Both the position numbers and the translations under genes were made by a program. Below are positions 17,475-48,188 of a DNA stretch of 57,542 bases, one piece after another. The DNA is from Lentimicrobiaceae bacterium. GTDB taxonomy: Bacteria; Bacteroidota; Bacteroidia; Bacteroidales; UBA4417. The notes beneath the pieces are model-generated. The model searched no databases, had not been told where the DNA came from, and saw only the letters and a program-made list of their open reading frames with translations. Numbering within the stretch: the stretch's first letter is position 1; each line of letters opens with the position of its first letter. The DNA lies in NCBI GenBank assembly GCA_028697555.1, contig JAQVEX010000008.1:1-57542 (forward strand), read 5' to 3'.

Positions 17475-19013
17475 ATGTTATTCAATATAAACAATTTTAT
17501 AAAACACTTGTATTACGACGAAGATATTGTTATTCCCGACAATATTATTTCAGAAGTAAGCGACAACTTTAATTTTTTAGATGAATTTGCCAAAGGCAAA
17601 ATAATTTACGGTATTAATACGGGTTTTGGTCCTATGTCGCAACATAAGATTGAGCCAAAAAACTTAAATCAGTTGCAGTACAACCTTATCAGAAGCCATT
17701 GTACAGGCTCTGGTGTTCCAATTCCGCAACGATACGTAAAATCTGCAATGATATGCAGATTACTATCGCTGTGCAAGGCTAAATCGGGTATACACCCCGA
17801 CGCTATACTGCTACTACGCGATATGATTAACAACAACATTATTCCTGTTGTTTATTCGCATGGAAGTGTTGGCGCAAGCGGCGACTTAGTACAGTTGGCA
17901 CACATTGCTCTTGCCATGATTGGCGAAGGCGAAGTTTTTTACGAAAACAAAGTGATGAAAGCCAAAGACGCCTTCAAAAAATGCAAACTTAAGCCCTTAA
18001 AGGTACATATACGTGAAGGGCTGTCGCTAATAAACGGCACTTCGGTAATGACCGGTATTGCTGTTGTTAACATAATTCACGCCAGAAATCTTATCAACTT
18101 GGCTTTATGCCTTTCGGCAATGGTTAACGAGTTGGTTGAAAGTTTCGACGACACCTTTTCGCAAGAACTTAACTGCAGCAAACTACACTACGGTCAGAAG
18201 CATGCTGCTCATATGGTTAGCAATATATTACGCGACAGCAAACTGCTTAAGAAAAGGGACAAATCTCTTTACAAAAAGAATAATCAGAAGAATGAGATAA
18301 TTTCCGAAAGAGTGCAAGAGTACTACTCTTTAAGATGCTTCCCACAAGTTTTAGGACCAATCATCGATACTATCGAATATGCCGAAAATGTTATAATAAA
18401 CGAAGCCAATTCATCTAACGATAATCCTGTGGTCGACACATTCACAAAAACAGTTTATCACGGTTGCAACTTCCACGGCGATTATATTTCCTTAGAAATG
18501 GATAAAGTGAAAATATGCATGACCAAACTATCTATGCTGATTGAAAGACAATTGAACTTTTTACTTAATCCTAAACTAAATGAAAGATTTCCTGCATTTC
18601 TGAACTTGGGCAAATTGGGCTTAAACCTTGGAATGCAAGCCATGCAGTTCACTGCTACATCAACCACAGCCGAAAACCAAACTTTGAGCTTCCCCAATTA
18701 CGTTCACAGTATTCCTAACAACTTAGATAATCAGGATATAGTGAGTATGGGAACAAACTCGGCTCTGATAGCCCAAAAAGTAATAAACAACACTTACGAA
18801 ATAATGTCTATTTACGTAATTGCGGTGTTGCAAGCGTACCGAATAGTGAACAAATTCGATAAAATGGCATCGGCTACGTTAGATTTTTATAAAGAATTTG
18901 ACCAAATAGCACCTGTTTTTATTGAAGACACAACAAAATACGATGTAATAAGAGATGTAACCGGTTATTTGAAAAATCAGTCCTTACAAAAATATTTATC
19001 AACAATAGTATAA
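17475..19013 (+). CDS. Tyrosine ammonia-lyase (aromatic amino acid lyase, MIO family)
   Basis: A 512-aa MIO-dependent lyase expected to convert tyrosine to trans-4-coumarate, the starter of flexirubin-type pigments. The self-cyclising triad is Ala134-Ser135-Gly136 in GSVGASGDLVQ. NTGFGPMSQHKI, LQYNLIRSHCTGSG, INGTSVMTGI, QEYYSLRCFPQVLGP and FTATSTTAENQ match, from memory, the Flavobacterium johnsoniae TAL nearly word for word. The selectivity pair is Ser-His (IRSHC), as in that enzyme, so histidine ammonia-lyase is the main alternative; cluster context strongly favours TAL. The stop codon overlaps the next start by 1 nt. Confidence 0.9.
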   Translation: MLFNINNFIKHLYYDEDIVIPDNIISEVSDNFNFLDEFAKGKIIYGINTGFGPMSQHKIEPKNLNQLQYNLIRSHCTGSGVPIPQRYVKSAMICRLLSLCKAKSGIHPDAILLLRDMINNNIIPVVYSHGSVGASGDLVQLAHIALAMIGEGEVFYENKVMKAKDAFKKCKLKPLKVHIREGLSLINGTSVMTGIAVVNIIHARNLINLALCLSAMVNELVESFDDTFSQELNCSKLHYGQKHAAHMVSNILRDSKLLKKRDKSLYKKNNQKNEIISERVQEYYSLRCFPQVLGPIIDTIEYAENVIINEANSSNDNPVVDTFTKTVYHGCNFHGDYISLEMDKVKICMTKLSMLIERQLNFLLNPKLNERFPAFLNLGKLGLNLGMQAMQFTATSTTAENQTLSFPNYVHSIPNNLDNQDIVSMGTNSALIAQKVINNTYEIMSIYVIAVLQAYRIVNKFDKMASATLDFYKEFDQIAPVFIEDTTKYDVIRDVTGYLKNQSLQKYLSTIV

Positions 19014-19741
19014 TGAAACACGCATTAGTTACAGGAGGTTCGAGAGGCATAGGCAGAGCTATATGTATAGAACTGTCGAACTTGGGCTACAACGTTATTA
19101 TCAACTACAAAGGCAACAAGGCTGCCGCCGAAGAAACCCTTAATATGATAAAAAATAACGGCAAAAGCGCCGAATTGCTTCAGTTCGACATTTCAAATGT
19201 TGATGAAGTTGATAGCCAATTAGAAAAGTGGTTTAACAATAACGAAGGCAGTTATATTTCGGTGTTGGTTAATAACGCCGGTATAAGAAACGACAGTTTG
19301 ATGCTTTGGATGCAAAACGAACAATGGAAAAATGTTATTGATACTAACTTAAACGGATTTTTCTACGTAACCCGTCGCTTAATAAAAGATATGCTGGTGC
19401 GTAAGTCAGGACGCATAATAAATATTGTTTCGCTTTCGGGAATTAAAGGATTGCCCGGTCAAACCAACTACTCGGCTGCAAAGGCAGCAGTTATTGGAGC
19501 TACAAAGGCATTGGCTCAAGAAGTTGGCAGAAAAGGCGTTACCGTTAATGCTATCGCTCCGGGATACATTAAATCGGAAATGACTGAAGATTTAGACGAG
19601 AAAGAACTGTCGAAACTTGTCCCTGTAAACCGTTTTGGACTGCCCGAAGAAGTAGCTTACCTCGTAGGCGTTCTGACCAACGAAAGAGCGGCATATATTA
19701 CAGGCGAGGTAATATCAGTAAACGGAGGTATTCACACGTAA
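19013..19741 (+). CDS. 3-oxoacyl-ACP reductase (FabG-like SDR) of the pigment cluster
   Basis: A 242-aa short-chain dehydrogenase/reductase that would reduce 3-ketoacyl-ACP during polyene extension. It has the NADP-binding GGSRGIGRAI motif at the N-terminus, NNAG at ~88-91, and the catalytic Tyr153-x3-Lys157 in NYSAAK, with the C-terminal YITGEVISVNGG. It overlaps the lyase gene by 1 nt and precedes the first ketosynthase by 16 nt. It is the only ketoreductase seen in the cluster. Confidence 0.9.
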   Translation: MKHALVTGGSRGIGRAICIELSNLGYNVIINYKGNKAAAEETLNMIKNNGKSAELLQFDISNVDEVDSQLEKWFNNNEGSYISVLVNNAGIRNDSLMLWMQNEQWKNVIDTNLNGFFYVTRRLIKDMLVRKSGRIINIVSLSGIKGLPGQTNYSAAKAAVIGATKALAQEVGRKGVTVNAIAPGYIKSEMTEDLDEKELSKLVPVNRFGLPEEVAYLVGVLTNERAAYITGEVISVNGGIHT

Positions 19742-22205: not shown

Positions 22206-23270
22206 ATGGCAATAAAACGAAGTAATAACTATAAATCGGCTCATCAGGCTCAGTTTGATGCCCAAAAAATAGCATTCGCTCCAATAATGTTTCAAGCTGC
22301 AAGATGTTTGGTAAAATTTGGCATATTGGAAGTGTTAAATAATAACGAAAATGGCATTTCATACAAAGACGTTGCAGACAAGTGTAATATATCCGAATAT
22401 GCAGCCAAAGTATTGCTAGAAGCAGGATTACACATTGAAGTAGTTGAAGAAAAAAACGATTTGTTTTTCTTAACCAAAACCGGATGGTTTTTACTAACAG
22501 ACGACCTAACAATAGCCAATATGAACTTTGTTCACGATGTAAATTACAATGGCTTTTACTATTTAGATGAAGCTCTGCTAAACGGAAAACCCAAAGGTTT
22601 AAAAGTTTTTGGTAAATGGGATACTATTTATCAAGCACTTTCGGAACTTCCCGAACAGGTCAGAAAAAGCTGGTTCGAGTTCGACCACTACTACTCCGAC
22701 TTCTCATTTCCATTGGCTTTGCCTATAATTTTCTCCGATAATCCTAAAAAGATTTTAGACATTGGCGGAAATACCGGAAAATTTGCAATAGAATGTGCAA
22801 CATTCAACCCCGATGTTAAGGTAACCATTTTAGACCTTCCGGGACAGCTGAAAGATGCGGAAAAAAATATAAAAAAGGCAGGATTTGAAAACAGAATAGA
22901 TTTACAAGCTGCCAACATCCTGAATTTTGACAAAAAATATCCAAAAGGCTACGATGTTGTGTGGATGAGCCAATTTTTAGATTGTTTCTCGCAAGAGCAA
23001 ATTGTAAAAATTTTATTGAACGTGAAAGAAACACTAAACCCCAACGGCAAAATATTCATAATGGAAACATTTTGGGATAACCAAAAAACGGTAGCCGGTT
23101 CGTATTGCCTAACAGCAACAAGTTTATACTTTACCTGCATGGCAAACGGCAACAGCCAGATGTACAAATTTGACGACATGGCAAAACTAATTGAAAAAGC
23201 CGGACTTAAAATCAACCGCACCCATGATAACATAGGCATAAGCCACACAATTGTTGAATGTACGATATGA
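22206..23270 (+). CDS. SAM-dependent O-methyltransferase (dimerisation domain + class I fold)
   Basis: 354 aa. Residues ~15-95 form a winged-helix dimerisation domain (ARCLVKFGILEVLNNNENGIS, AAKVLLEAGLH). The Rossmann domain has motif I LDIGGNTGKFAIECA, the acidic motif II TILDLPGQ, and DVVWMSQFLDCFSQEQIVKIL. The layout resembles plant/bacterial small-molecule O-methyltransferases. Likely role: methylating the aryl head group or the polyene carboxylate; substrate unknown. It overlaps the next gene by 13 nt, suggesting translational coupling. Confidence 0.85.
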   Translation: MAIKRSNNYKSAHQAQFDAQKIAFAPIMFQAARCLVKFGILEVLNNNENGISYKDVADKCNISEYAAKVLLEAGLHIEVVEEKNDLFFLTKTGWFLLTDDLTIANMNFVHDVNYNGFYYLDEALLNGKPKGLKVFGKWDTIYQALSELPEQVRKSWFEFDHYYSDFSFPLALPIIFSDNPKKILDIGGNTGKFAIECATFNPDVKVTILDLPGQLKDAEKNIKKAGFENRIDLQAANILNFDKKYPKGYDVVWMSQFLDCFSQEQIVKILLNVKETLNPNGKIFIMETFWDNQKTVAGSYCLTATSLYFTCMANGNSQMYKFDDMAKLIEKAGLKINRTHDNIGISHTIVECTI

Positions 23271-23686
23271 ATGATATAATTAATATAAATGTTGAAACAC
23301 TTTTGCCGCAAAAGCGACCTTTTATCTTTATTGATAAGTTGGTTGAATGCAGTCAGGAATTTGCAAAAACTGTTTTCAACATTAAACCCGACAATGTTTT
23401 GGTAATCGACAATGTGCTTAGCGAAGCCGGATTGATGGAAAATATTGCCCAAACTTGCGCTGCTCGTATAGGGTACTTAAATATGAAGGGCGGTAAAGGA
23501 GTAAACGTAGGCGTTATTGGCAGTGTTAAAGATTTTGAAATAAAAATGCTTCCTGCTGCAAATCAAACAATAGAAACTTGTATCAAGGTTTTAAATGTTT
23601 TTGCCAGCATAACCATGATTGAAGCTATTGTTAAACTTAACGATGAAATTATCGCCACAGGCGAAATGAAAGTATCCGAACAATGA
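23258..23686 (+). CDS. Hotdog-fold dehydratase subunit with Glu but no His (ApeI/ApeP-type)
   Basis: A 142-aa FabZ-like hotdog protein. QKRPFIFIDKLVEC is the characteristic N-terminal hotdog strand. The helix that carries the FabZ catalytic Glu is well kept (LSEAGLMENIAQTCAARIG, Glu in MENIAQ). Fourteen residues upstream, where FabZ has the His of HFPG, there is Val (DNVLVIDN). A partner with the opposite pattern is encoded at 29931. Predicted to form a heterodimeric 3-hydroxyacyl-ACP dehydratase with it, as shown for aryl polyene ApeI:ApeP. Confidence 0.82.
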   Translation: MYDMNDIININVETLLPQKRPFIFIDKLVECSQEFAKTVFNIKPDNVLVIDNVLSEAGLMENIAQTCAARIGYLNMKGGKGVNVGVIGSVKDFEIKMLPAANQTIETCIKVLNVFASITMIEAIVKLNDEIIATGEMKVSEQ

Positions 23687-24102
23687 AAATACTATCGGCA
23701 ACAAAAGAAATAGAAATCCGCTTTAGCGAAGTTGACTCTATGGGAATAGTGTGGCACGGAGCTTATGCAAAGTATTTTGAAGATGCTCGCGAAGCTTTTG
23801 GAAAAAAATACGGAATCGGATACTTAGACATTAAAAAAAATGGATACTACGCTCCTTTGGTAAATTTAGATTTTAGCTTCAAAAAACCTTTGACCTACGG
23901 CGACAAAGCTATAGTTGAAGCTATTTACGAACCTTGTGCAGCAGCGAAAATAAAGTACAAATACAATATTTTTGATTTGTCGCAAAAGATAGTAATCGCA
24001 ACGGGAAGTAGCGTGCAAGTTTTCTTAAACGCCGACTACCAACTTGAGTGGAATACACCGGAATTTTTTCTGAAATGGAAACAAAAATATAATTTGTTGT
24101 AA
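23683..24102 (+). CDS. 4HBT-family acyl thioesterase
   Basis: A 139-aa single-hotdog thioesterase of the 4-hydroxybenzoyl-CoA/YbgC group. The signature FSEVDSMGIVWHGAYAKYFEDAREAF contains the catalytic Asp18 and the GIVWHGAYAKY loop. It likely releases or edits polyene-ACP thioesters. Overlaps of 4 nt upstream and 1 nt downstream place it firmly in the operon. Confidence 0.88.
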   Translation: MKILSATKEIEIRFSEVDSMGIVWHGAYAKYFEDAREAFGKKYGIGYLDIKKNGYYAPLVNLDFSFKKPLTYGDKAIVEAIYEPCAAAKIKYKYNIFDLSQKIVIATGSSVQVFLNADYQLEWNTPEFFLKWKQKYNLL

Positions 24103-25262
24103 TGAGTTTTGTATATCAAATAGGTAACAATATTATATCGCCATTGGGTTTTTCAACCTACGAAAACTATAATGCCATCAAAGAAGGCAAAACTTCGCTT
24201 ACCAAGTACGACAAATCGGCTCTGAACTTAACCGAAGATTTTTGTGCATCAATAATTGATAAAAATGAGTTGGAAGTTCAACTTAAAGCTGCTAATATCC
24301 AAAATATAGACAATACTTTCGACAAACTGATAATACTTTCTGCTCACAAAGCTGTACAGCAGGCAAACATAAATCCGTCTTCAAAAGATGTTTTGTTTAT
24401 CCTATCAACAACCAAAGGAAATATCACAGCAATTGATAATACAAACAAGAATTGCACAGATACAAGTCAAGCGTATTTATGGAGAAGTGCAAACATATTG
24501 TGCAAACATTTCGAAAACAGCAATCAACCAATAGTAATCTCAAACGCTTGCATATCGGGAGTATCGGCAATTGTAATTGCTAAGCGACTTCTGATTGCAA
24601 AGAAATTCAAATACGTTATAATAGTTGGAGCCGACTTATCAAGTCGATTTATTGTTTCAGGATTTCAGTCGTTTAAAGCCCTATCAGATGAGCCTTGTAA
24701 ACCTTTCGACAAAGACCGCAAAGGTCTTAATTCGGGTGAAGCTGCTACAACAATAATTCTAAGCATCACAGATAATAAAGATGAATTGAAAGATAAAATT
24801 ATCATCGAAGGTGGCGCAATAACCAACGATGCAAACCATATTTCGGGTCCTTCCAGAACAGGCGAAGGTCTTGTGAAAGCTATAAACAAAATAAAGGAGT
24901 CGGTATCCAACTTCAACCCCGATTTCATAAATGCACACGGAACTGCGACTCCGTACAACGACGAAATGGAAGCCATTGCATTTGGCAGAACTGATTTAAA
25001 CAGAGTTTACACTAATAGTTTAAAAGGTTACTTCGGACATACAATGGGAGCCGCAGGTGTTATTGAAACTGTTTTATGTGGCGAAGCCCTGATTGACAAT
25101 ACGCTTATCAAATGCTTGGGATTTGAAAATTTAGGCACAAGTGTAGACATTAACGTTATTGACAAAACCGTAAATCATAAATCGGGACTTAAGCAGTGTT
25201 TGAAAACTGCCTCAGGATTTGGCGGATGCAACGCTGCCGTGCTAATTTCTAAAATGATTTAA
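24102..25262 (+). CDS. Beta-ketoacyl-ACP synthase 2 of the pigment cluster (intact)
   Basis: A 386-aa ketosynthase, more divergent than the other two but with a complete triad: Cys150 in SNACISGVSAI, His279 in NAHGTATPYNDE and His313 in GYFGHTMGAAG. The C-terminus has SGFGGCNAAVLI in place of SFGFGGTN. The N-terminus (YQIGNNIISPLGFSTYENYN) is typical of cluster-specific aryl polyene ketosynthases. It is followed after 1 nt by the mini ketosynthase-like gene. Confidence 0.9.
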   Translation: MSFVYQIGNNIISPLGFSTYENYNAIKEGKTSLTKYDKSALNLTEDFCASIIDKNELEVQLKAANIQNIDNTFDKLIILSAHKAVQQANINPSSKDVLFILSTTKGNITAIDNTNKNCTDTSQAYLWRSANILCKHFENSNQPIVISNACISGVSAIVIAKRLLIAKKFKYVIIVGADLSSRFIVSGFQSFKALSDEPCKPFDKDRKGLNSGEAATTIILSITDNKDELKDKIIIEGGAITNDANHISGPSRTGEGLVKAINKIKESVSNFNPDFINAHGTATPYNDEMEAIAFGRTDLNRVYTNSLKGYFGHTMGAAGVIETVLCGEALIDNTLIKCLGFENLGTSVDINVIDKTVNHKSGLKQCLKTASGFGGCNAAVLISKMI

Positions 25263-25263
25263 C

Positions 25264-25854
25264 ATGCAAGATAATACGATTAAATACTGCAAAATTTCAT
25301 TGGAAGAAGTCAATTATTCCGATAAGGATTTTTATCGCAATAATGATAAGGCAGATATGATTACATTTGCAAAAAAAATTTATAAATCGTTGGAAATAGA
25401 TTATCCGAAATTTTATAAAATGGACTTGCTTGCGAAATTAGGGTTTTTATCTACCGAAATACTTTTTCAAAAAGCTGAACTATCAGTTGAGGAAAAAGAA
25501 AATCTTGCATTGTTTATGCTAAGTTCGTACTCGTCGTTAAGCACCGATTGTAATTACCAAGCCACATTAGGCGATGATTTTTTTCCAAGTCCGGCAGTAT
25601 TTGTATACACCTTGCCAAATATAGTTTTGGGCGAAATCTGCATACGACACAAAATCTACGGCGAAAACACTTGTATAATTTCAGAAAATAAAAACAACGA
25701 AAATTTTATAAATATCATTGACTCAACATATAGCACGTCGGATACAAACCATGCTATAGTCCTATTTGTTGACGAATTCAACGATATTAATTATGCAGAA
25801 GCATATCTGATAAACAGGAGCAACTACAAAAATCTGAAACAAATAATAAATTAA
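25264..25854 (+). CDS. Small ketosynthase-like protein without catalytic residues
   Basis: A 196-aa protein starting at the ATG at 25264, 1 nt after a ketosynthase gene. The stretch MLSSYSSLSTDCNY, then FFPSPAVFVYTLPNIVLGEI and IRHKIYGENTCI, resembles the core of thiolase-fold ketosynthases, where the N-terminal half ends near the active Cys. No Cys in an ACSSG context and no His motifs are present, and the C-terminal half of the fold is missing. I recall similar short proteins in Bacteroidota pigment clusters. It may act as a structural subunit. The function is unproven. Confidence 0.65.
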   Translation: MQDNTIKYCKISLEEVNYSDKDFYRNNDKADMITFAKKIYKSLEIDYPKFYKMDLLAKLGFLSTEILFQKAELSVEEKENLALFMLSSYSSLSTDCNYQATLGDDFFPSPAVFVYTLPNIVLGEICIRHKIYGENTCIISENKNNENFINIIDSTYSTSDTNHAIVLFVDEFNDINYAEAYLINRSNYKNLKQIIN

Positions 25855-25889
25855 ATTAGAGCATATAAATTTTTTAAATTTAAGTACAT

Positions 25890-26147
25890 ATGAAATCATT
25901 AATTGATACGCTAAAGGAAGAGATAATAGAAGTTTTAAATTTAGAAGAGATATCTCCCGAAGATATTGACGAAAAAGCCCCTTTGTTTGGCGCCGGCTTA
26001 GGCTTAGACTCTATTGATGCTCTCGAACTAATAGTACTAATGGAAAGAAACTACGGTATAAAACTAAAAGATGCCAATGAAGGTAGAGAGATTTTTTCTT
26101 CGGTAGAAACAATGGCGCAGTACATTGAAAAACATCGTACAAAATAA
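25890..26147 (+). CDS. Acyl carrier protein 2
   Basis: An 85-aa ACP with phosphopantetheine Ser41 in GLGLDSIDALELIVLMERNYGI. It differs clearly from ACP 1 (83 aa), so the two probably serve different steps, for example starter loading and extension. It lies directly upstream of ketosynthase 3. Confidence 0.92.
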   Translation: MKSLIDTLKEEIIEVLNLEEISPEDIDEKAPLFGAGLGLDSIDALELIVLMERNYGIKLKDANEGREIFSSVETMAQYIEKHRTK

Positions 26148-26148
26148 A

Positions 26149-27348
26149 ATGAAAAACGAGCAAATAGTTGTTACCGGTATGGGTGTTGTTTCGGCTATTG
26201 GAAACAGTGTTGCCGAAATTTTGCATTCTATTAAAAATTCAACTTGTCCAATCGGCGAAATCAAACATTTGGATACTATAAATAAATATCCTGTCGCCGA
26301 AGTTGCCTTGTCGGATGCCGAAATGAAGCAAATGCTCAACCTGCCCGAAGATGCCGAACACACTCGAACTACGCTCATGGGGATTTTAGCTGTACAACAA
26401 GCTATAGAATCCTTAAGCGACGAAGAAAAAACGACAAAGCGTGTAGCATTTATAAACGGTACAACTGTTGGCGGTATGGAAAAAAGCGAAAAGCATTTCT
26501 TAGACTTTTTTGAAACCGACGAGTACGACAAGTATATCAAAGTCCACGACTGCGGTTCCAGCTCGGAAGCTATTGCCGACTACTTCGGATGTTTCAGTCA
26601 CGTATCAACTATATCAACAGCTTGCTCGTCGGGAGCGAACTCCGTAATAATGGGTTGCCGACTTATAGAAAACGACCTTGTTGATATTGCCATTGTCGGC
26701 GGAAGTGAATGTTTGACGAAGTTTCACATAAACGGTTTTAGCACGCTTTTAATTTTAGATAATGAAATTTGTAGCCCGTTTGATAAAAACAGAGCCGGCT
26801 TAAATCTTGGCGAAGGTGCAGCATATATAGTTTTACAAAAAGCATCTGACGTAAAACCTCAAGATAAAGGCAAAATTTTGTGCAAAGTAAGCGGCTATTC
26901 CAACACCTGCGATGCTTACCACCAGACTGCTTCTTCGCCCGAAGGCGAAGGTGCATACTTGGCTATGCAAAATGCCTTGATAAACTCAAATCTGAAACCT
27001 CAAGACATTGACTACATTAGCGCACACGGCACCGGAACACCAAACAACGACTTGTCGGAAGGCATTTCCATACAAAGAATTTTTGGCGATAATATTCCGC
27101 CTGTCAGCTCCACAAAATCGCTTACAGGACACACTACCAGCGCCTCGGGTGCAATTGAAGCAATTATCAGCATTTTAGCTCTCAACGAAGGTTTTATTCC
27201 GCCCAACTACAACTTCAAGGAAAAAATGCCGGAACTTAATTTTGCTCCGCAAAAAGAAATTGAAAGCCGCAAACTAAAAAACGTACTCTCTAACTCCTTC
27301 GGGTTTGGCGGCAACAATACCAGTATAATATTTTCGCTGTACAACTAA
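26149..27348 (+). CDS. Beta-ketoacyl-ACP synthase 3 of the pigment cluster (intact)
   Basis: 399 aa from the ATG at 26149, 1 nt after the ACP stop; an in-frame TTG at 26125 inside the ACP gene is less likely. Full triad: Cys159 in STACSSGANSVI, His293 in SAHGTGTPNND and His328 in KSLTGHTTSASG, plus NSFGFGGNNTSI. It is followed after 5 nt by a non-catalytic homologue, the arrangement expected for a type II polyketide ketosynthase/chain-length-factor pair (ApeO:ApeC in aryl polyene systems). Confidence 0.93.
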   Translation: MKNEQIVVTGMGVVSAIGNSVAEILHSIKNSTCPIGEIKHLDTINKYPVAEVALSDAEMKQMLNLPEDAEHTRTTLMGILAVQQAIESLSDEEKTTKRVAFINGTTVGGMEKSEKHFLDFFETDEYDKYIKVHDCGSSSEAIADYFGCFSHVSTISTACSSGANSVIMGCRLIENDLVDIAIVGGSECLTKFHINGFSTLLILDNEICSPFDKNRAGLNLGEGAAYIVLQKASDVKPQDKGKILCKVSGYSNTCDAYHQTASSPEGEGAYLAMQNALINSNLKPQDIDYISAHGTGTPNNDLSEGISIQRIFGDNIPPVSSTKSLTGHTTSASGAIEAIISILALNEGFIPPNYNFKEKMPELNFAPQKEIESRKLKNVLSNSFGFGGNNTSIIFSLYN

Positions 27349-27353
27349 TTTTT

Positions 27354-28427
27354 ATGAAACGAACTCCAATATACATTAATGGCATAGGTTTAATATCTAT
27401 TCAGAAACCGTTGTCGGATGATGTAATATATAATCCCGAAGATTTTAGCAGCAACTACGTTAAGTGTCAAGAACCTGATTACAAGCAGTACATAAATGCC
27501 GGTACTGCACGCAGGATGAGTCCCATTATAAAACGAAGCATTGTAACTTCAAAAACTGCTTTAAAAAATGCAAACATTGATATTCCTGACGCTATAATTT
27601 CGGGTACAGGTTTGGGATGCGCTACGGATACCGAAAAGTTTTTGACCTCAATGGTAGAGAACAATGAAGAGTTCCTTTCTCCAACGGCTTTCATTCACTC
27701 AACTCACAACACACTAAGCAGTCAGGTTGCAATTGATATTAATTGCAAGAACTACAACAATACTTTTATGCAAAAAGGTGTATCGTTCGAGCATGCCCTA
27801 TTAGATGCCGTTTGTATGATAAGAAACAACGAAATAAACAATGCTTTGGTTATGGGCAATGACGAGTTTAACGAAAAGTTTCATAAATTGTACGATAATC
27901 TTAAATTTTGGAAAACAAATGTCGAAAGCACATTAAACATAGCCAAACAGAATGATAGCTACGGTTCATTTGCAGGCGAAGGCAGTTCGGCTTTGGTAGT
28001 TACCAACCGGTTTAACGAAAAATCATATGCTAAAATAACCGACCTTAAGGTAACGTATAATTGCAAAGGTATTGACATAGATTTTGTTGAGAATTTTTTG
28101 GCTGAAAACAACCTTAACTTCAGCAACATCGATTTAATACTTACAGGTATTGACGGAGATAAAGAAAACGACTTGATTTACAGCAATTTATTTAATAACA
28201 GTGAAATCTCCAACAAAATTGGGTTGTATAGGAATTTGAGCGGTTATTATTACACGTCGAGCGGATTTGGGTTTGGTGCAGCTACCATCTGTCTGAAAAA
28301 CGGACTCATTCCAAAACATCTTACACTTAACGGTAAAGAAATAAAAAATCCGGAAAATATACTTTTCTATAATCATTCAGATAATAAGCAACACGCACTT
28401 TCAATTATTTCAAAATGTACAGACTAA
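27354..28427 (+). CDS. Ketosynthase chain-length-factor-like protein
   Basis: A 357-aa ketosynthase homologue that has lost all three catalytic residues. The active-site region reads MQKGVSFEHALLDA where the partner has TACSSGANSV. The first His motif is LTGIDGDKENDL instead of SAHGTGTPND. The second reads RNLSGYYYTSSG with Tyr for His. The fold markers TALKNANIDIPD and SSGFGFGAATICL remain. Presumed heterodimer partner of ketosynthase 3, setting the polyene length. It overlaps the transporter gene by 13 nt. Confidence 0.83.
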   Translation: MKRTPIYINGIGLISIQKPLSDDVIYNPEDFSSNYVKCQEPDYKQYINAGTARRMSPIIKRSIVTSKTALKNANIDIPDAIISGTGLGCATDTEKFLTSMVENNEEFLSPTAFIHSTHNTLSSQVAIDINCKNYNNTFMQKGVSFEHALLDAVCMIRNNEINNALVMGNDEFNEKFHKLYDNLKFWKTNVESTLNIAKQNDSYGSFAGEGSSALVVTNRFNEKSYAKITDLKVTYNCKGIDIDFVENFLAENNLNFSNIDLILTGIDGDKENDLIYSNLFNNSEISNKIGLYRNLSGYYYTSSGFGFGAATICLKNGLIPKHLTLNGKEIKNPENILFYNHSDNKQHALSIISKCTD

Positions 28428-28771
28428 TAGGTTTATCATTAATACAATCGACTTTTTTGGTCGCAGCTCAAGTGTTTTTGAAATTTGCGATGCAAAGAAT
28501 GGGAAAATTCTCGTTTACGATAGAATTTTTCAAGCAATTACTTGTAAATTGGCAACTTCTGTTCTCAGGAATTTCAATAGTAATAGCAACATTGCTTTGG
28601 ATGTACATATTAAAACACTTCGATTTTAGCATGGCTTATCCGCTAATCAGCATGAGTTACGTTATAGGTGCAATAGCTGCTGTCGTCATTTTTCATGAAA
28701 CAATACCCATTAATCGTTGGATTGGACTCGGCTTGATAATTTTAGGCGTAATATTTGTAGTACAGAAGTAA
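28415..28771 (+). CDS. Small EamA/DMT-family membrane protein
   Basis: 118 aa with four hydrophobic helices (LSLIQSTFLVAAQVFLKFAM; LLFSGISIVIATLLWMYIL; FSMAYPLISMSYVIGAIAAVVIF; WIGLGLIILGVIFVVQ). The size and the Pro/Gly/Ser-rich third helix match small half-sized members of the drug/metabolite transporter superfamily (EamA/SMR), which work as dimers. It may flip the lipid-linked pigment or a sugar-lipid intermediate. The transported substrate cannot be read from sequence. Confidence 0.8.
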   Translation: MYRLIGLSLIQSTFLVAAQVFLKFAMQRMGKFSFTIEFFKQLLVNWQLLFSGISIVIATLLWMYILKHFDFSMAYPLISMSYVIGAIAAVVIFHETIPINRWIGLGLIILGVIFVVQK

Positions 28772-28782
28772 AATTCTAAATC

Positions 28783-29442
28783 ATGAGAGTTAAAACTAAT
28801 TTTTACGTCCTTACTTTGCTCGTTTTGTTCAGTATTTTTAATTCAAATCTGAACGCTCAAAACTACACAAAGCTTAATGATGCCGATGCCATTGCTTGTA
28901 AAAATCAAATAAAAAAATCCGCTGAAAGCGTAAATACCATACAATGCAATTTTGTTCAGGAAAAAGAAATGTCGTTTTTAGATTCAAAACTGATTTCTAA
29001 AGGAAAAATGTATTTGAAAAAAGATAGAAAACTGCTTTGGCAATACACCACTCCTTACGAGTTTTCTTTTGTTATCAACGAAAATAATATTGCAATGGTA
29101 AACAAGGATCAAAAAAATTCTTTTGATTCAAATTCCAATTCGTTTTTTAAAAATTTAAGTTCTATTGTTGTTGGCAGCTTCAATGGCGAACTGTTGGACA
29201 ATAAAAAAGATTTTGACATCACTTATTTTAAACATAACAATAATTACAAAGTTGAAATCGTCCCTAAAAACAAAGTTTTAGGCGATATGATTAGCAAAAT
29301 CTCGCTGCATTTTAACAGTAAAGATTGGAGCGTTGATTCTATACTTTTGCACGACAAACAAGGAGATGTTACAAATATCGCTTTTTCTGAAAAGATATTT
29401 AACAAAAATATTGATAACCGCGTTTTTGATATCAACAAATAA
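28783..29442 (+). CDS. LolA-like outer membrane lipoprotein carrier
   Basis: A 219-aa periplasmic LolA-fold protein with a signal peptide (LTLLVLFSIFNSNLNAQ). The beta-barrel half shows family features such as FVQEKEMSFLDSKLISKGKMYLKKDRKLLWQYTTPY. LolA paralogues are regular members of aryl polyene clusters, where they are thought to shuttle the amphipathic pigment lipid across the periplasm. The last 77 nt overlap the start of the next gene in another frame. Confidence 0.85.
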   Translation: MRVKTNFYVLTLLVLFSIFNSNLNAQNYTKLNDADAIACKNQIKKSAESVNTIQCNFVQEKEMSFLDSKLISKGKMYLKKDRKLLWQYTTPYEFSFVINENNIAMVNKDQKNSFDSNSNSFFKNLSSIVVGSFNGELLDNKKDFDITYFKHNNNYKVEIVPKNKVLGDMISKISLHFNSKDWSVDSILLHDKQGDVTNIAFSEKIFNKNIDNRVFDINK

Positions 29443-29941
29443 CGTAGTTTCACAATCAGTTTACACACAAAAACCCTTCGAGCCGTACTACATTCTACAA
29501 TTAGAAGATGTAGGCACGTACTTATTTTCGTTTTCTATAGAATATGGCAACAACGGTTTGTCGGGAATTATGTTGGCTAAATTCGACGGAAACAAAATAA
29601 TGGCTTCGATAGTAAACGAGTTTGGAATTAAAATTATTGATTTTTCGGTATCCGACGGCAATGTTGAAATAGACTACGCTGCCGACAAACTTAATAATCG
29701 CTTTGTGAAAAAAATAATTGAAAGCGACCTGGGATTTTTGTTTTCAAAATTTCCGCCAAACACAAACAAGAAGTATAATTACGAATTACAGTTTAATCCC
29801 AACGGCTCGTATAAAATAAGCAAACTATTAAAACACAAGACGGTACAGTGCTTTGAATGCAACAAAGACCGAAATTACACCGTAATAAATCTCAGAAACA
29901 ATATATCTTACAAACTTACTTTTTTACAATTTGATGAGTAA
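29366..29941 (+). CDS. Unknown secreted protein, start nested in the lolA-like gene
   Basis: 191 aa from the ATG at 29366; a TTG at 29333 is an alternative. The N-terminus MLQISLFLKRYLTKILITAF continues LISTNNVVSQ, a credible signal peptide, which supports a start inside the upstream gene (77-nt overlap). The body is beta-rich (YYILQLEDVGTYLFSFSIEY, VIVNEFGIKIIDFSV-like strands) and has one Cys-x2-Cys (VQCFECNK). No known family recognised. Position next to lolA suggests a periplasmic or outer-membrane role, as for the accessory lipoprotein of aryl polyene clusters. Confidence 0.65.
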   Translation: MLQISLFLKRYLTKILITAFLISTNNVVSQSVYTQKPFEPYYILQLEDVGTYLFSFSIEYGNNGLSGIMLAKFDGNKIMASIVNEFGIKIIDFSVSDGNVEIDYAADKLNNRFVKKIIESDLGFLFSKFPPNTNKKYNYELQFNPNGSYKISKLLKHKTVQCFECNKDRNYTVINLRNNISYKLTFLQFDE

Positions 29942-30305
29942 TACCGAACTTAAAAACTATTTTTACAAAATAACCGACAGCAAAAAGTCAGATGACGGAT
30001 TCGCTTATACGATTAAACTTAACAGCAATCATTGGGTTTTTGAAGTCCATTTCGCAGGTAATCCCATAACTCCAGGTGCACTTTTGTTGCAAATTACCAA
30101 AGAATTGATAAGTACCGAACTTGGGAAACAAATTAGCATAAACAAAACGCAAAATATAAGGTTTTTAAATGCTATAAATCCTATTGAAAACCCGATTGTG
30201 GAGTTTGTGTTTACAAAAGACGAAGCAAATAAGTTGAATATCGTTATCAAACACGATGACACAATGTTTGCAAGAATTAAACTAACTTACTCAGTGCATG
30301 ACTAA
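29931..30305 (+). CDS. Hotdog-fold dehydratase subunit with His but Gln for Glu
   Basis: A 124-aa FabZ-like hotdog protein. The His-containing loop is conserved (VHFAGNPITPGALLLQ, compare FabZ HFPGxPxxPGVLxxE). The catalytic Glu 14 residues after that His is Gln (LLLQITKEL). This is the mirror image of the protein at 23258, which keeps Glu and lacks His. Expected to pair with it as a heterodimeric dehydratase. Overlaps of 11 nt upstream and 8 nt downstream. Confidence 0.82.
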   Translation: MMSNTELKNYFYKITDSKKSDDGFAYTIKLNSNHWVFEVHFAGNPITPGALLLQITKELISTELGKQISINKTQNIRFLNAINPIENPIVEFVFTKDEANKLNIVIKHDDTMFARIKLTYSVHD

Positions 30306-39136: not shown

Positions 39137-40456
39137 ATGAAATTTGTCCCTTCTATAGAATTTGAACCTCCTGAAATTATTAAAAAATTTCAGGACGAAA
39201 AGCTTAAAGAAAACCTGCTGTATTTGAAAAACAATTCAAAATACTATCAAAACGTTTTTAACAAAAACAATATAAAAATCGAGAAAATAAATAGTGTTTC
39301 CGATTTAAGCAATATTCCGTTCACTACCAAAACCGATTTGCACAACTACAACACTGATTTTTTGTGCGTTGAAAGAGAAAAAATTGTCGATTATATTACC
39401 ACATCAGGAACTTTGGGCAATCCAGTAACATTTGCAATGACCGACAAAGACTTAGAGCGACTTGCATATAACGAAGCAATTTCTTTCACCTGTGCCGGTG
39501 GAAAATCAACCGACATATATCAACTAATGACCACCATAGACAAGCGCTTTATGGCGGGACTTGCATACTTTTTGGGTATCAGAAAAATGGGTGCGGGAAT
39601 TATTAGGGTTGGCAATGGCGTTGCCGAACTTCAGTGGGACAGCATCAAGCGATTTAATCCAAATACGATTATTGTAGTCCCCAGCTTTATTTTGAGAGTT
39701 ATTAAATACGCCGAAGACAACGGAATTGACTATAAAAATTCCAGCATAAAAAAAGCCGTATGTATAGGCGAAAACTTGCGCGATACCAATTTAGAACTTA
39801 ATCTTTTGGGTAGCAAAATAAAAGAAAAATGGGATATTCAACTGTTCTCGACATACGCCTCTACCGAAATGGCAACAACATTTTGCGAATGTGAATACGG
39901 CTGCGGCGGACACGAACATCCAGAACTTATCATCACCGAACTTGTTGACGATGACGGAAACGTAGTTGAAGATGGACAAATAGGCGAATTGTGCGTTACT
40001 ACACTTGGAGTTGAAGGAATGCCCTTGCTTAGGTTTAAAACCGGCGATATGGCTAAGTTTTACACCGAAAAATGCAAATGCGGCAGAACGACCAAACGTA
40101 TTAGCCCAATTATAGGCAGAAAGAACCAAATGATTAAATTTAAAGGTACTACCCTATTCCCTTCGGCTATCTTCGAAGTATTAGACAACACTGACTTGGT
40201 TAACAATTACTACGTAGAAGTGAGCACCAACGACATAGGAACCGACGATATAGAAATTTTTGTCAGCACAAACTGCGAAACAGAAAATAATTATAAATTT
40301 GTAGCCCAACTAAAAGATAAATTTAAAGCACGATTACGCGTTACTCCCAGAATATCAATTACAAGTAGCGACGTGATAAACAAAGTTCAAGGTAAAGAAA
40401 TAAACAGAAAACCTAAAAAATTTATAGATAAAAGAAGCAATAACCATGACAATTAA
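39137..40456 (+). CDS. AMP-forming ligase (phenylacetate-CoA ligase-like), presumed 4-coumarate activation
   Basis: A 439-aa adenylate-forming enzyme of the PaaK type. The P-loop is TTSGTLGNPVTFAM. FSTYASTEMATTFCECEYGCGGHEHPE and GELCVTTLGVEGMPLLRFKTGD carry the A5 and A7-like core motifs with several Cys residues, as in PaaK relatives that have a metal site. The hinge is ISPIIGRKNQMIKFKG. Together with the ammonia-lyase at 17475 it would load 4-coumarate onto an ACP or CoA. It overlaps the next gene by 11 nt. Confidence 0.85.
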   Translation: MKFVPSIEFEPPEIIKKFQDEKLKENLLYLKNNSKYYQNVFNKNNIKIEKINSVSDLSNIPFTTKTDLHNYNTDFLCVEREKIVDYITTSGTLGNPVTFAMTDKDLERLAYNEAISFTCAGGKSTDIYQLMTTIDKRFMAGLAYFLGIRKMGAGIIRVGNGVAELQWDSIKRFNPNTIIVVPSFILRVIKYAEDNGIDYKNSSIKKAVCIGENLRDTNLELNLLGSKIKEKWDIQLFSTYASTEMATTFCECEYGCGGHEHPELIITELVDDDGNVVEDGQIGELCVTTLGVEGMPLLRFKTGDMAKFYTEKCKCGRTTKRISPIIGRKNQMIKFKGTTLFPSAIFEVLDNTDLVNNYYVEVSTNDIGTDDIEIFVSTNCETENNYKFVAQLKDKFKARLRVTPRISITSSDVINKVQGKEINRKPKKFIDKRSNNHDN

Positions 40457-46830: not shown

Positions 46831-47295
46831 ATGAAGCAATCAATTTTAGGTTTATATTATGAAGATTTTATAGTAGGGGAAGAAATTAAGCACTCGCTTT
46901 CAAAAACGATTTTTGAAAGTGATAATAATTTATTTAGTTTATTAACAATGAATCACCATCCTGTGCACACAAACCTCCATTATGCAGAAATAAATCAGCA
47001 TGGTAAAATTATGGTTGTGGGCACACTTGTCTTTTCTGTTATAGTTGGAATGACAGTTCCTGATATCAGCGGAAAAGCTATTGCTAATCTAGGGTATGAA
47101 GATGTGAAGCACGTTGCGCCTGTGTTTATTAACGATACACTTTATGCAAAAACCAAAATTTTAAGCAAAAGAGAATCTAAAAGCAAACCTGATAGAGGGA
47201 TTGTGTATGTAGAAACTGTTGGTTACAATCAAAATGGCGTGGAAGTTATAAGTTTTAGAAGGAAAGTATTAATTAAAAAACAAAACCAAGTATGA
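46831..47295 (+). CDS. MaoC-like acyl dehydratase/hydratase
   Basis: A 154-aa hotdog protein of the MaoC/R-hydratase type. The active-site segment reads LLTMNHHPVHTN, where the common LTGDxNPxHxD has Asn for Asp, a form I associate with mesaconyl-CoA-type hydratases. GLYYEDFIVGEE and VVGTLVFSVIVGMTV are family features. It overlaps the CitE-like gene by 4 nt, so the two products probably act in sequence on one CoA ester. Confidence 0.85.
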   Translation: MKQSILGLYYEDFIVGEEIKHSLSKTIFESDNNLFSLLTMNHHPVHTNLHYAEINQHGKIMVVGTLVFSVIVGMTVPDISGKAIANLGYEDVKHVAPVFINDTLYAKTKILSKRESKSKPDRGIVYVETVGYNQNGVEVISFRRKVLIKKQNQV

Positions 47296-48188
47296 GAACA
47301 GATTTATTAATGAGGAGTCTAATGTTTGTTCCAGCTCATAATGAGACCTTAATTGAGAGTGCATTAAGAAGAGATGCAGATGTATTACTATTAGATATTG
47401 AAGACTCTGTGCAACCTACAGAGAATAAACAAATAGCAAGGGATAATATTGTTAAATACCTTAAAGCTGGGAAGTTTGATAATAGAGTTCTTTTTCCGAG
47501 AGTTAATGATAGAGAAAGCGGTCAATTGCTTAAAGATGTTTATCAGTTAGCTTGCGTGGGAATAAATGGTTTTATGTATCCAAAAGCAAAAAAAGGAGAG
47601 GATATTTATTTTTTTGGTAAACTATTAGAAACAATAGAATATGAAAAGAAATTACCTCTGCATACTTTTAAAATAATTGCCCTCATTGAAACTCCTGGAG
47701 CTGTAATGAATATTCAAGATATTTGTACTGCATGTCCGGAAAGGTTAGTTGGAGTAGCTTTTGGTTGCGAAGATTTTATGACTGAGTTAGGTGGACAACA
47801 CGATAGTGAAGGGCAAAGCATCTTTACTGCCAGAGCTATGATTGCAATGGGAGCAAAAGCAAATAATATTGTGCCAATAGATACAGTGCATATAAAAGTA
47901 CATGATTTAGTAGATTTAGAAAAAAATCTAATACTATCGAGAAAATTAGGTTTTGAAGGAATGCTAGTCCTTAACCCAAAAGAATTACCATTAGTTCATC
48001 AATACTATTCCCCATCTCAAGAGCAGGTTCAGTGGGCAAAAGAGATGTTGGAATTATCGGAAGAAGCCGTAAAACAAGGAAAAGGGGTTGCAATGAAAGA
48101 CAACAAATTTATTGGCCCCCCAATGGTAAAAATGGCTAAGGATATATTAAATAAAGTTGATCTTATAAAAACCATAAAAAATGAGTAA
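47292..48188 (+). CDS. HpcH/HpaI-family CoA-ester lyase (CitE-like)
   Basis: A 298-aa barrel enzyme of the citrate lyase beta / malyl-CoA lyase group. RSLMFVPAHNETLIESALRR (CoA/phosphate end), LLLDIEDSVQP (metal-binding Asp/Glu), IALIETPGAVMNI (Glu) and VGVAFGCEDFMTELGG (Asp) are all in place. Likely makes or cleaves a beta-hydroxyacyl-CoA such as malyl-, methylmalyl- or citramalyl-CoA. Its presence in a sugar cluster, with a MaoC protein and a sugar acyltransferase, points to an unusual acyl substituent. Confidence 0.87.
   Translation: MRTDLLMRSLMFVPAHNETLIESALRRDADVLLLDIEDSVQPTENKQIARDNIVKYLKAGKFDNRVLFPRVNDRESGQLLKDVYQLACVGINGFMYPKAKKGEDIYFFGKLLETIEYEKKLPLHTFKIIALIETPGAVMNIQDICTACPERLVGVAFGCEDFMTELGGQHDSEGQSIFTARAMIAMGAKANNIVPIDTVHIKVHDLVDLEKNLILSRKLGFEGMLVLNPKELPLVHQYYSPSQEQVQWAKEMLELSEEAVKQGKGVAMKDNKFIGPPMVKMAKDILNKVDLIKTIKNE

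Follow-up and report, generated by a model that had tools for sequence, protein, structure and literature searches.

FabA-type dehydratases take the His and the Asp of each active site from different subunits, also when they are homodimers (PMC2698920). In aryl polyene systems, a complex of two hotdog subunits is deposited as PDB 6QSR under the title "The Dehydratase Heterocomplex ApeI:P, from Xenorhabdus doucetiae", and the ApeI/ApeP proteins of Acinetobacter baumannii are described as heterodimeric dehydratases with a single active site (PMC8041823). In an in vitro assay, ApeH/ApeP acted as the dehydratase and a polyene peak was seen at 460 nm (PMC8041823). The corresponding dehydratases of Chitinophaga pinensis are named FlxF and FlxS (PMC3992019). 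We compared these systems with a gene cluster in the contig JAQVEX010000008.1 of a Lentimicrobiaceae bacterium (GCA_028697555.1; all 57,542 nucleotides, hereafter the window), in which an initial annotation had seen two hotdog proteins carrying complementary halves of one FabZ-like active site. With a probability of about 0.8, we regard these proteins as ApeP-like and ApeI-like partners in a heterodimeric 3-hydroxyacyl-ACP dehydratase of the ApeI:ApeP type, with one complete site per dimer.

Gene content of the cluster

Judged by its genes, the window cluster is a flexirubin-type aryl polyene cluster (Table 1). The gene set of aryl polyene clusters (KS, CLF, KR, ACP, thioesterase, LolA, exporter) was found in it: FlxA, FlxB and FlxY score above their NCBIfam cut-offs and LolA, KS and 4HBT genes are present; FlxJ and LolB2 score under theirs. 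The flexirubin type is indicated by the FlxA tyrosine ammonia-lyase equivalog (763.9 against 700 bits). At the position equivalent to that of the second ketosynthase homologue, a chain length factor is annotated in two other loci, L207 (Aureispira anguillae pAUEa) and L208 (Persicobacter psychrovividus pPP6); these are plasmid flexirubin-like clusters in which both dehydratase subunits are annotated as hypothetical. Ketosynthases, ACPs, the thioesterase and LolA surround the ApeP-like and ApeI-like genes, which lie on the same strand. The thioesterase was considered as a partner of ApeP and dropped, as it is a YbgC/4HBT enzyme and no dehydratase. Further along the window (46831-48188), inspection by eye showed a MaoC-like hotdog protein and, after it, a CitE/HpcH-like lyase, unusual neighbours in a sugar/polysaccharide gene region. 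The source genome is 2.3 Mb in size, against 3.6-6.2 Mb in genus relatives, and an ApeI match was found in only about one third of the relatives' genomes.

Table 1. Features of the window cluster and residues of the two putative dehydratase subunits
Feature	Coordinates	Strand	Basis
FlxA tyrosine ammonia-lyase	17475..19013	+	NCBIfam NF053541, 763.9 vs cut-off 700
FlxB ketoreductase	19013..19741	+	NCBIfam NF053542, 391.2 vs cut-off 340
FlxJ-family methyltransferase	22206..23270	+	NCBIfam NF053543, 523.6, just under cut-off 560
ApeP-like (FlxF-type) hotdog subunit, 142 aa	23258..23686	+	ORF, AF2 model, 6qsr_B match
Glu61, FabZ catalytic Glu equivalent, in LMENIAQ	23438..23440	+	alignment
Gln65, second residue of ExxxQ motif, in LMENIAQ	23450..23452	+	alignment
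YbgC/4HBT-type thioesterase, third hotdog protein of the cluster	23683..24102	+	Pfam 4HBT and 4HBT_2 above cut-off
Ketosynthase	26125..27348	+	Pfam ketoacyl-synt
Chain-length-factor-like ketosynthase homologue	27354..28427	+	Pfam Ketoacyl-synt_2 above cut-off
ApeI-like (FlxS-type) hotdog subunit, ~124 aa	29931..30305	+	ORF; Pfam FabA above cut-off
His40, catalytic His equivalent, in VHFAGNPITPG	30048..30050	+	alignment
Gln54 at His+14, in place of FabZ Glu / FabA Asp	30090..30092	+	alignment
Glu58 at His+18, one helical turn after Gln54	30102..30104	+	alignment
FlxY aryl-CoA ligase	39137..40456	+	NCBIfam NF053551, 688.8 vs cut-off 520

Complementary residues in two conserved subunits

Both open reading frames named in the initial annotation exist where it had placed them, and the residues that it had read from them were largely recovered by alignment with the genome's own FabZ. 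The ApeP-like protein keeps the FabZ Glu, as had been claimed, and also Gln65, in a protein whose loop is about five residues shorter and from which the His is absent. The further claim of a Val at the His position is harder to sustain: one alignment agrees with it, but it depends on counting back 14 residues across the shortened loop, so "no conserved His there" is the safe wording. The Glu61 equivalent is Glu in all 94 Bacteroidota ApeP-like sequences and in 4/4 proteobacterial ApeP, as well as in 63/63 ApeP-like clusters formed at 70% identity, and ExxxQ occurs in 99/99 ApeP-like sequences. No conserved His was found, as any of 25 offsets before the Glu has His in at most 9 of the 94 sequences. 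The AF2 model of the ApeP-like protein (pLDDT 93) has the fold of ApeP, with 6qsr_B as both the first-ranked Foldseek entry and the top VIA match (Z 20.9, rmsd 1.5, 135 residues aligned; next entry 19.5). The Pfam ApeP-like model (PF22817, cut-off 27 bits) gave no match to the window protein, nor did it match three Flavobacteria-type ApeP-like sequences. One further ApeP sequence was used solely as a search probe.

Some Flavobacteriaceae-type clusters (L052, L055, L060, L061, L070 and others) carry two tandem ApeP-like genes side by side, where the window has one. In these pairs ExxxQ is kept and the conserved His is absent from both copies, and it is possible that one ApeI chooses between two acid subunits.

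The ApeI-like protein, which probably starts at the ATG at 29934, immediately after the TTG, has the reciprocal pattern that had been described for it, with His40 kept and Gln54 at His+14, the position of the FabZ Glu. His is found in 131/131 Bacteroidota ApeI-like sequences, 80 of which were fetched by a pattern that includes it (the HFPG motif) and are not counted as evidence of its invariance; it is equally present in the 51/51 fetched without the His motif and in 81/81 clusters at 70% identity. At His+14, 126 of the 131 are non-acidic (Q114 E5 G4 R3 K3 L1 S1), and the 51 fetched without the motif have a similar composition (Q46 R2 L1 S1 E1). The fixation of these residues (Glu, His and a non-acidic His+14) across the ApeI and ApeP alignments, which the initial annotation had proposed as a check, is not due to chance. 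Structural assignment of the ApeI-like model (pLDDT 93) is less specific: 6qsr_A heads its VIA list (Z 14.8, rmsd 2.1, 110 residues aligned), but FabZ and 3ESI come within 1 of that Z and so tie with it, and Foldseek ranks FabZ first. For both models, single chains were predicted from alignments whose rows came from the window and the genome loci. The Pfam ApeI-like model (PF22818, cut-off 28.5 bits) has no match in the window protein at E<=0.1, and other Bacteroidota ApeI reach 17.9-20.3 bits with it. ApeI-like or ApeP-like domains also lie within much longer open frames (L101:8177-9736, L119:9776-11098, L100:1564-2868), which are possible fusions to neighbouring cluster genes; the ApeI-bearing long frames of L101 and L119 aside, no natural ApeI-ApeP fusion was found among the loci.

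It is literally true, as had been stated, that neither protein alone has the FabZ catalytic pair: the alignment finds His and Glu together in neither, and both fall far below the FabZ equivalogs TIGR01750 and NF000582 (21-23 and 15-17 bits against cut-offs of 155 and 113). The absence of the pair from both proteins might mean that at least one of the two genes has decayed and that the FabZ of fatty acid synthesis, fused to LpxC and the sole other match to PF07977 (FabA/FabZ) in the source genome, carries out the dehydration instead. This is highly improbable, however, because the reading frames are open, the hotdog models are confident and the Glu and the His are invariant over the 63 and 81 clusters, respectively, that form at 70% identity, all of which indicates selection rather than decay.

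A proposed single site built by two subunits

The heterodimer reading draws on four kinds of observation: the residues themselves, their phylum-wide fixation, the fold, and the co-linear linkage of the genes, which is conserved. In the proposed scheme, an ApeI:ApeP-type dehydratase would account for every double bond in the flexirubin aryl polyene. A FabA/FabZ homodimer contains two sites, each with the His of one subunit and the Glu/Asp of the other. Since the His and the acid of a FabA-type site thus come from separate chains, an ApeI:ApeP dimer would retain one complete site. That site would consist of His40 from the ApeI-like subunit and Glu61, with Gln65, from the ApeP-like subunit, whereas the mirror site, in which the Gln54/Glu58 helix of ApeI faces the His-less loop of ApeP, is expected to be dead. 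We infer a dimer of the two window proteins in which His40 and Glu61 share a pocket, and expect neither subunit to be active by itself. The initial annotation had cited ApeI/ApeP as a heterodimeric dehydratase of aryl polyene systems, which is borne out by the 6QSR crystal heterocomplex and by the Acinetobacter work (PMC8041823). Its idea of complementary halves has held in part. A heterodimer is the best explanation, since 6QSR chains head the VIA matches of both models, though in a tie with FabZ for ApeI, and such a complex is described (PMC8041823), but the cross-subunit site is inherited rather than new and only the asymmetry is derived, because FabA-type homodimers already build their sites across subunits (PMC2698920).

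The ApeI and ApeP genes lie on one strand in 74/74 Bacteroidota loci that hold both. It also favours the pair that, apart from the LpxC-FabZ fusion, the source genome has no further match to the FabA/FabZ domain. They are more often kilobases apart than adjoining, and two ApeP-like genes in Flavobacteriaceae could mean distinct functions; on these grounds, ApeI-like and ApeP-like proteins might instead be independent homodimers for different chain lengths or substrates, each with a catalytic residue not used by FabZ. Such separate roles are very unlikely given the precise complementarity of the residues, the 6QSR heterocomplex, the co-expressed Acinetobacter complex and the 16 loci in which no more than 1 kb separates the genes. 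Because of these 16 loci, the gap of 6 kb in the window, noted as a reservation in the initial annotation, also matters little.

The acid at His+18

What the initial annotation overlooked, as the alignment indicates, is Glu58 and with it a near-invariant Glu at His+18 in ApeI. Among the 131 Bacteroidota ApeI-like sequences this position is Glu in 126 and Asp in three (acid in 129/131), and it stays acidic also in sequences with K, R, G, L or S at His+14. The equivalent residue of FabZ and ApeP is Gln, so that the motif (E/D)xxxQ has been turned into QxxxE. The Glu might act as a catalytic acid that has been displaced, touch ApeP, or have a structural role. Because nearly every Bacteroidota ApeI has this acid, ApeI is perhaps not acid-less, which counts against the heterodimer reading and weakens the earlier prediction that the pair is obligate. 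Other observations against a heterodimer are the Glu at His+14 in five ApeI sequences, the failure of PF22818 and PF22817 to match the window proteins, and the tie between 6QSR and FabZ entries for the ApeI model.

The reversal of the helix motif from (D/E)xxxQ to QxxxE could mean that Glu and Gln have changed places in Bacteroidota ApeI, so that the catalytic acid has left His+14 for His+18 and acts one turn further along. ApeI would then have a site of its own with a different geometry, completed by a second ApeI, or there would be an extra, differently tuned site in the ApeI:ApeP dimer, with ApeP as an auxiliary or substrate-binding subunit. The retention of the acid at His+18 whatever stands at His+14 is consistent with this, as is the polyketide synthase DH motif DxxxQ/H, from which these positions can be seen to go together as a pair (PMC9600693). 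We nevertheless consider a shifted acid unlikely, whether alone or as a second site. Acid is found at neither position in two Bacteroidota ApeI (L074, Q/Q; L150, Q/M) or in that of Persicobacter (L208, F at His+14 and N at His+18), and each of these loci carries an ApeP-like gene with the Glu. Acinetobacter ApeI is likewise without the acid, since its His+14 residue is Gly and its +18 residue His, and the ApeP has IEIMAQ (these sequences are from an A. baumannii strain other than the one assayed). An A. baumannii-type enzyme with an acid-less ApeI and a Glu-bearing ApeP is probably active, because the assay with this complex as dehydratase gave polyene (PMC8041823) and the ApeI of this other strain lacks the acid while its ApeP has the Glu. 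A shift would also not explain why ApeP, which lacks the His, never varies in ExxxQ, and the ApeI helix of a heterodimer lies opposite the ApeP loop that has no His. The main argument that ApeP is the source of the working acid is this invariance of ExxxQ in a protein with no His; together with the ApeI proteins that have no acid at all, it favours the heterodimer over a site of ApeI's own.

Comparison with known systems

The proposal of a heterodimer with a single site is essentially right but largely known, and the new element is the QxxxE reversal in Bacteroidota ApeI. In the open papers searched, we found neither the motif reversal described nor the disappearance of the ApeI acid from flexirubin clusters throughout the phylum; the 2019 source paper of 6QSR, which was outside that search, may say more. 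The change would be one from a symmetric two-site homodimer to an asymmetric one-site heterodimer, in which an unused ApeI acid would be free to drift in one phylum and was lost separately in Acinetobacter. Function and partner can be proposed for two proteins that lie outside the Pfam ApeI and ApeP models and are called hypothetical in the Aureispira and Persicobacter records, and the reversal poses a clear and cheap question for mutagenesis.

The closest described system, ApeI:ApeP of X. doucetiae (6QSR), likewise pairs two hotdog proteins encoded in a single aryl polyene cluster, and its residue pattern of Glu without His in ApeP and His in ApeI is also that of the window pair; it differs in that its ApeI has His and an Asp at +14, whereas in the window protein Gln occupies +14 and Glu +18. 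Asp at +14 is also found in the proteobacterial ApeI sequences examined from Escherichia, Klebsiella, Enterobacter, Cedecea, Moellerella, Pseudoalteromonas, Cupriavidus, Caballeronia and Burkholderia, and Gly in those from Acinetobacter junii and A. baumannii. The A. baumannii ApeH(I)/ApeP pair resembles the window pair in having an ApeI His with no acid at +14 and an ApeP Glu, but its ApeI is fused to the ligase ApeH and the acid at +18 is absent. FlxF and FlxS of C. pinensis are two putative dehydratases in the same type of cluster, and in the portion of that source consulted they are annotated only, with no discussion of a split site or heterodimer (PMC3992019). FabZ and FabA share the fold and the His and acid positions, but are homodimeric, with two sites and both residues in each subunit. 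Mycobacterial HadAB is, like the proposed pair, a heterodimeric hotdog dehydratase with one active site, but there HadB gives both His and Asp, while HadA binds the substrate (PMC4491049).
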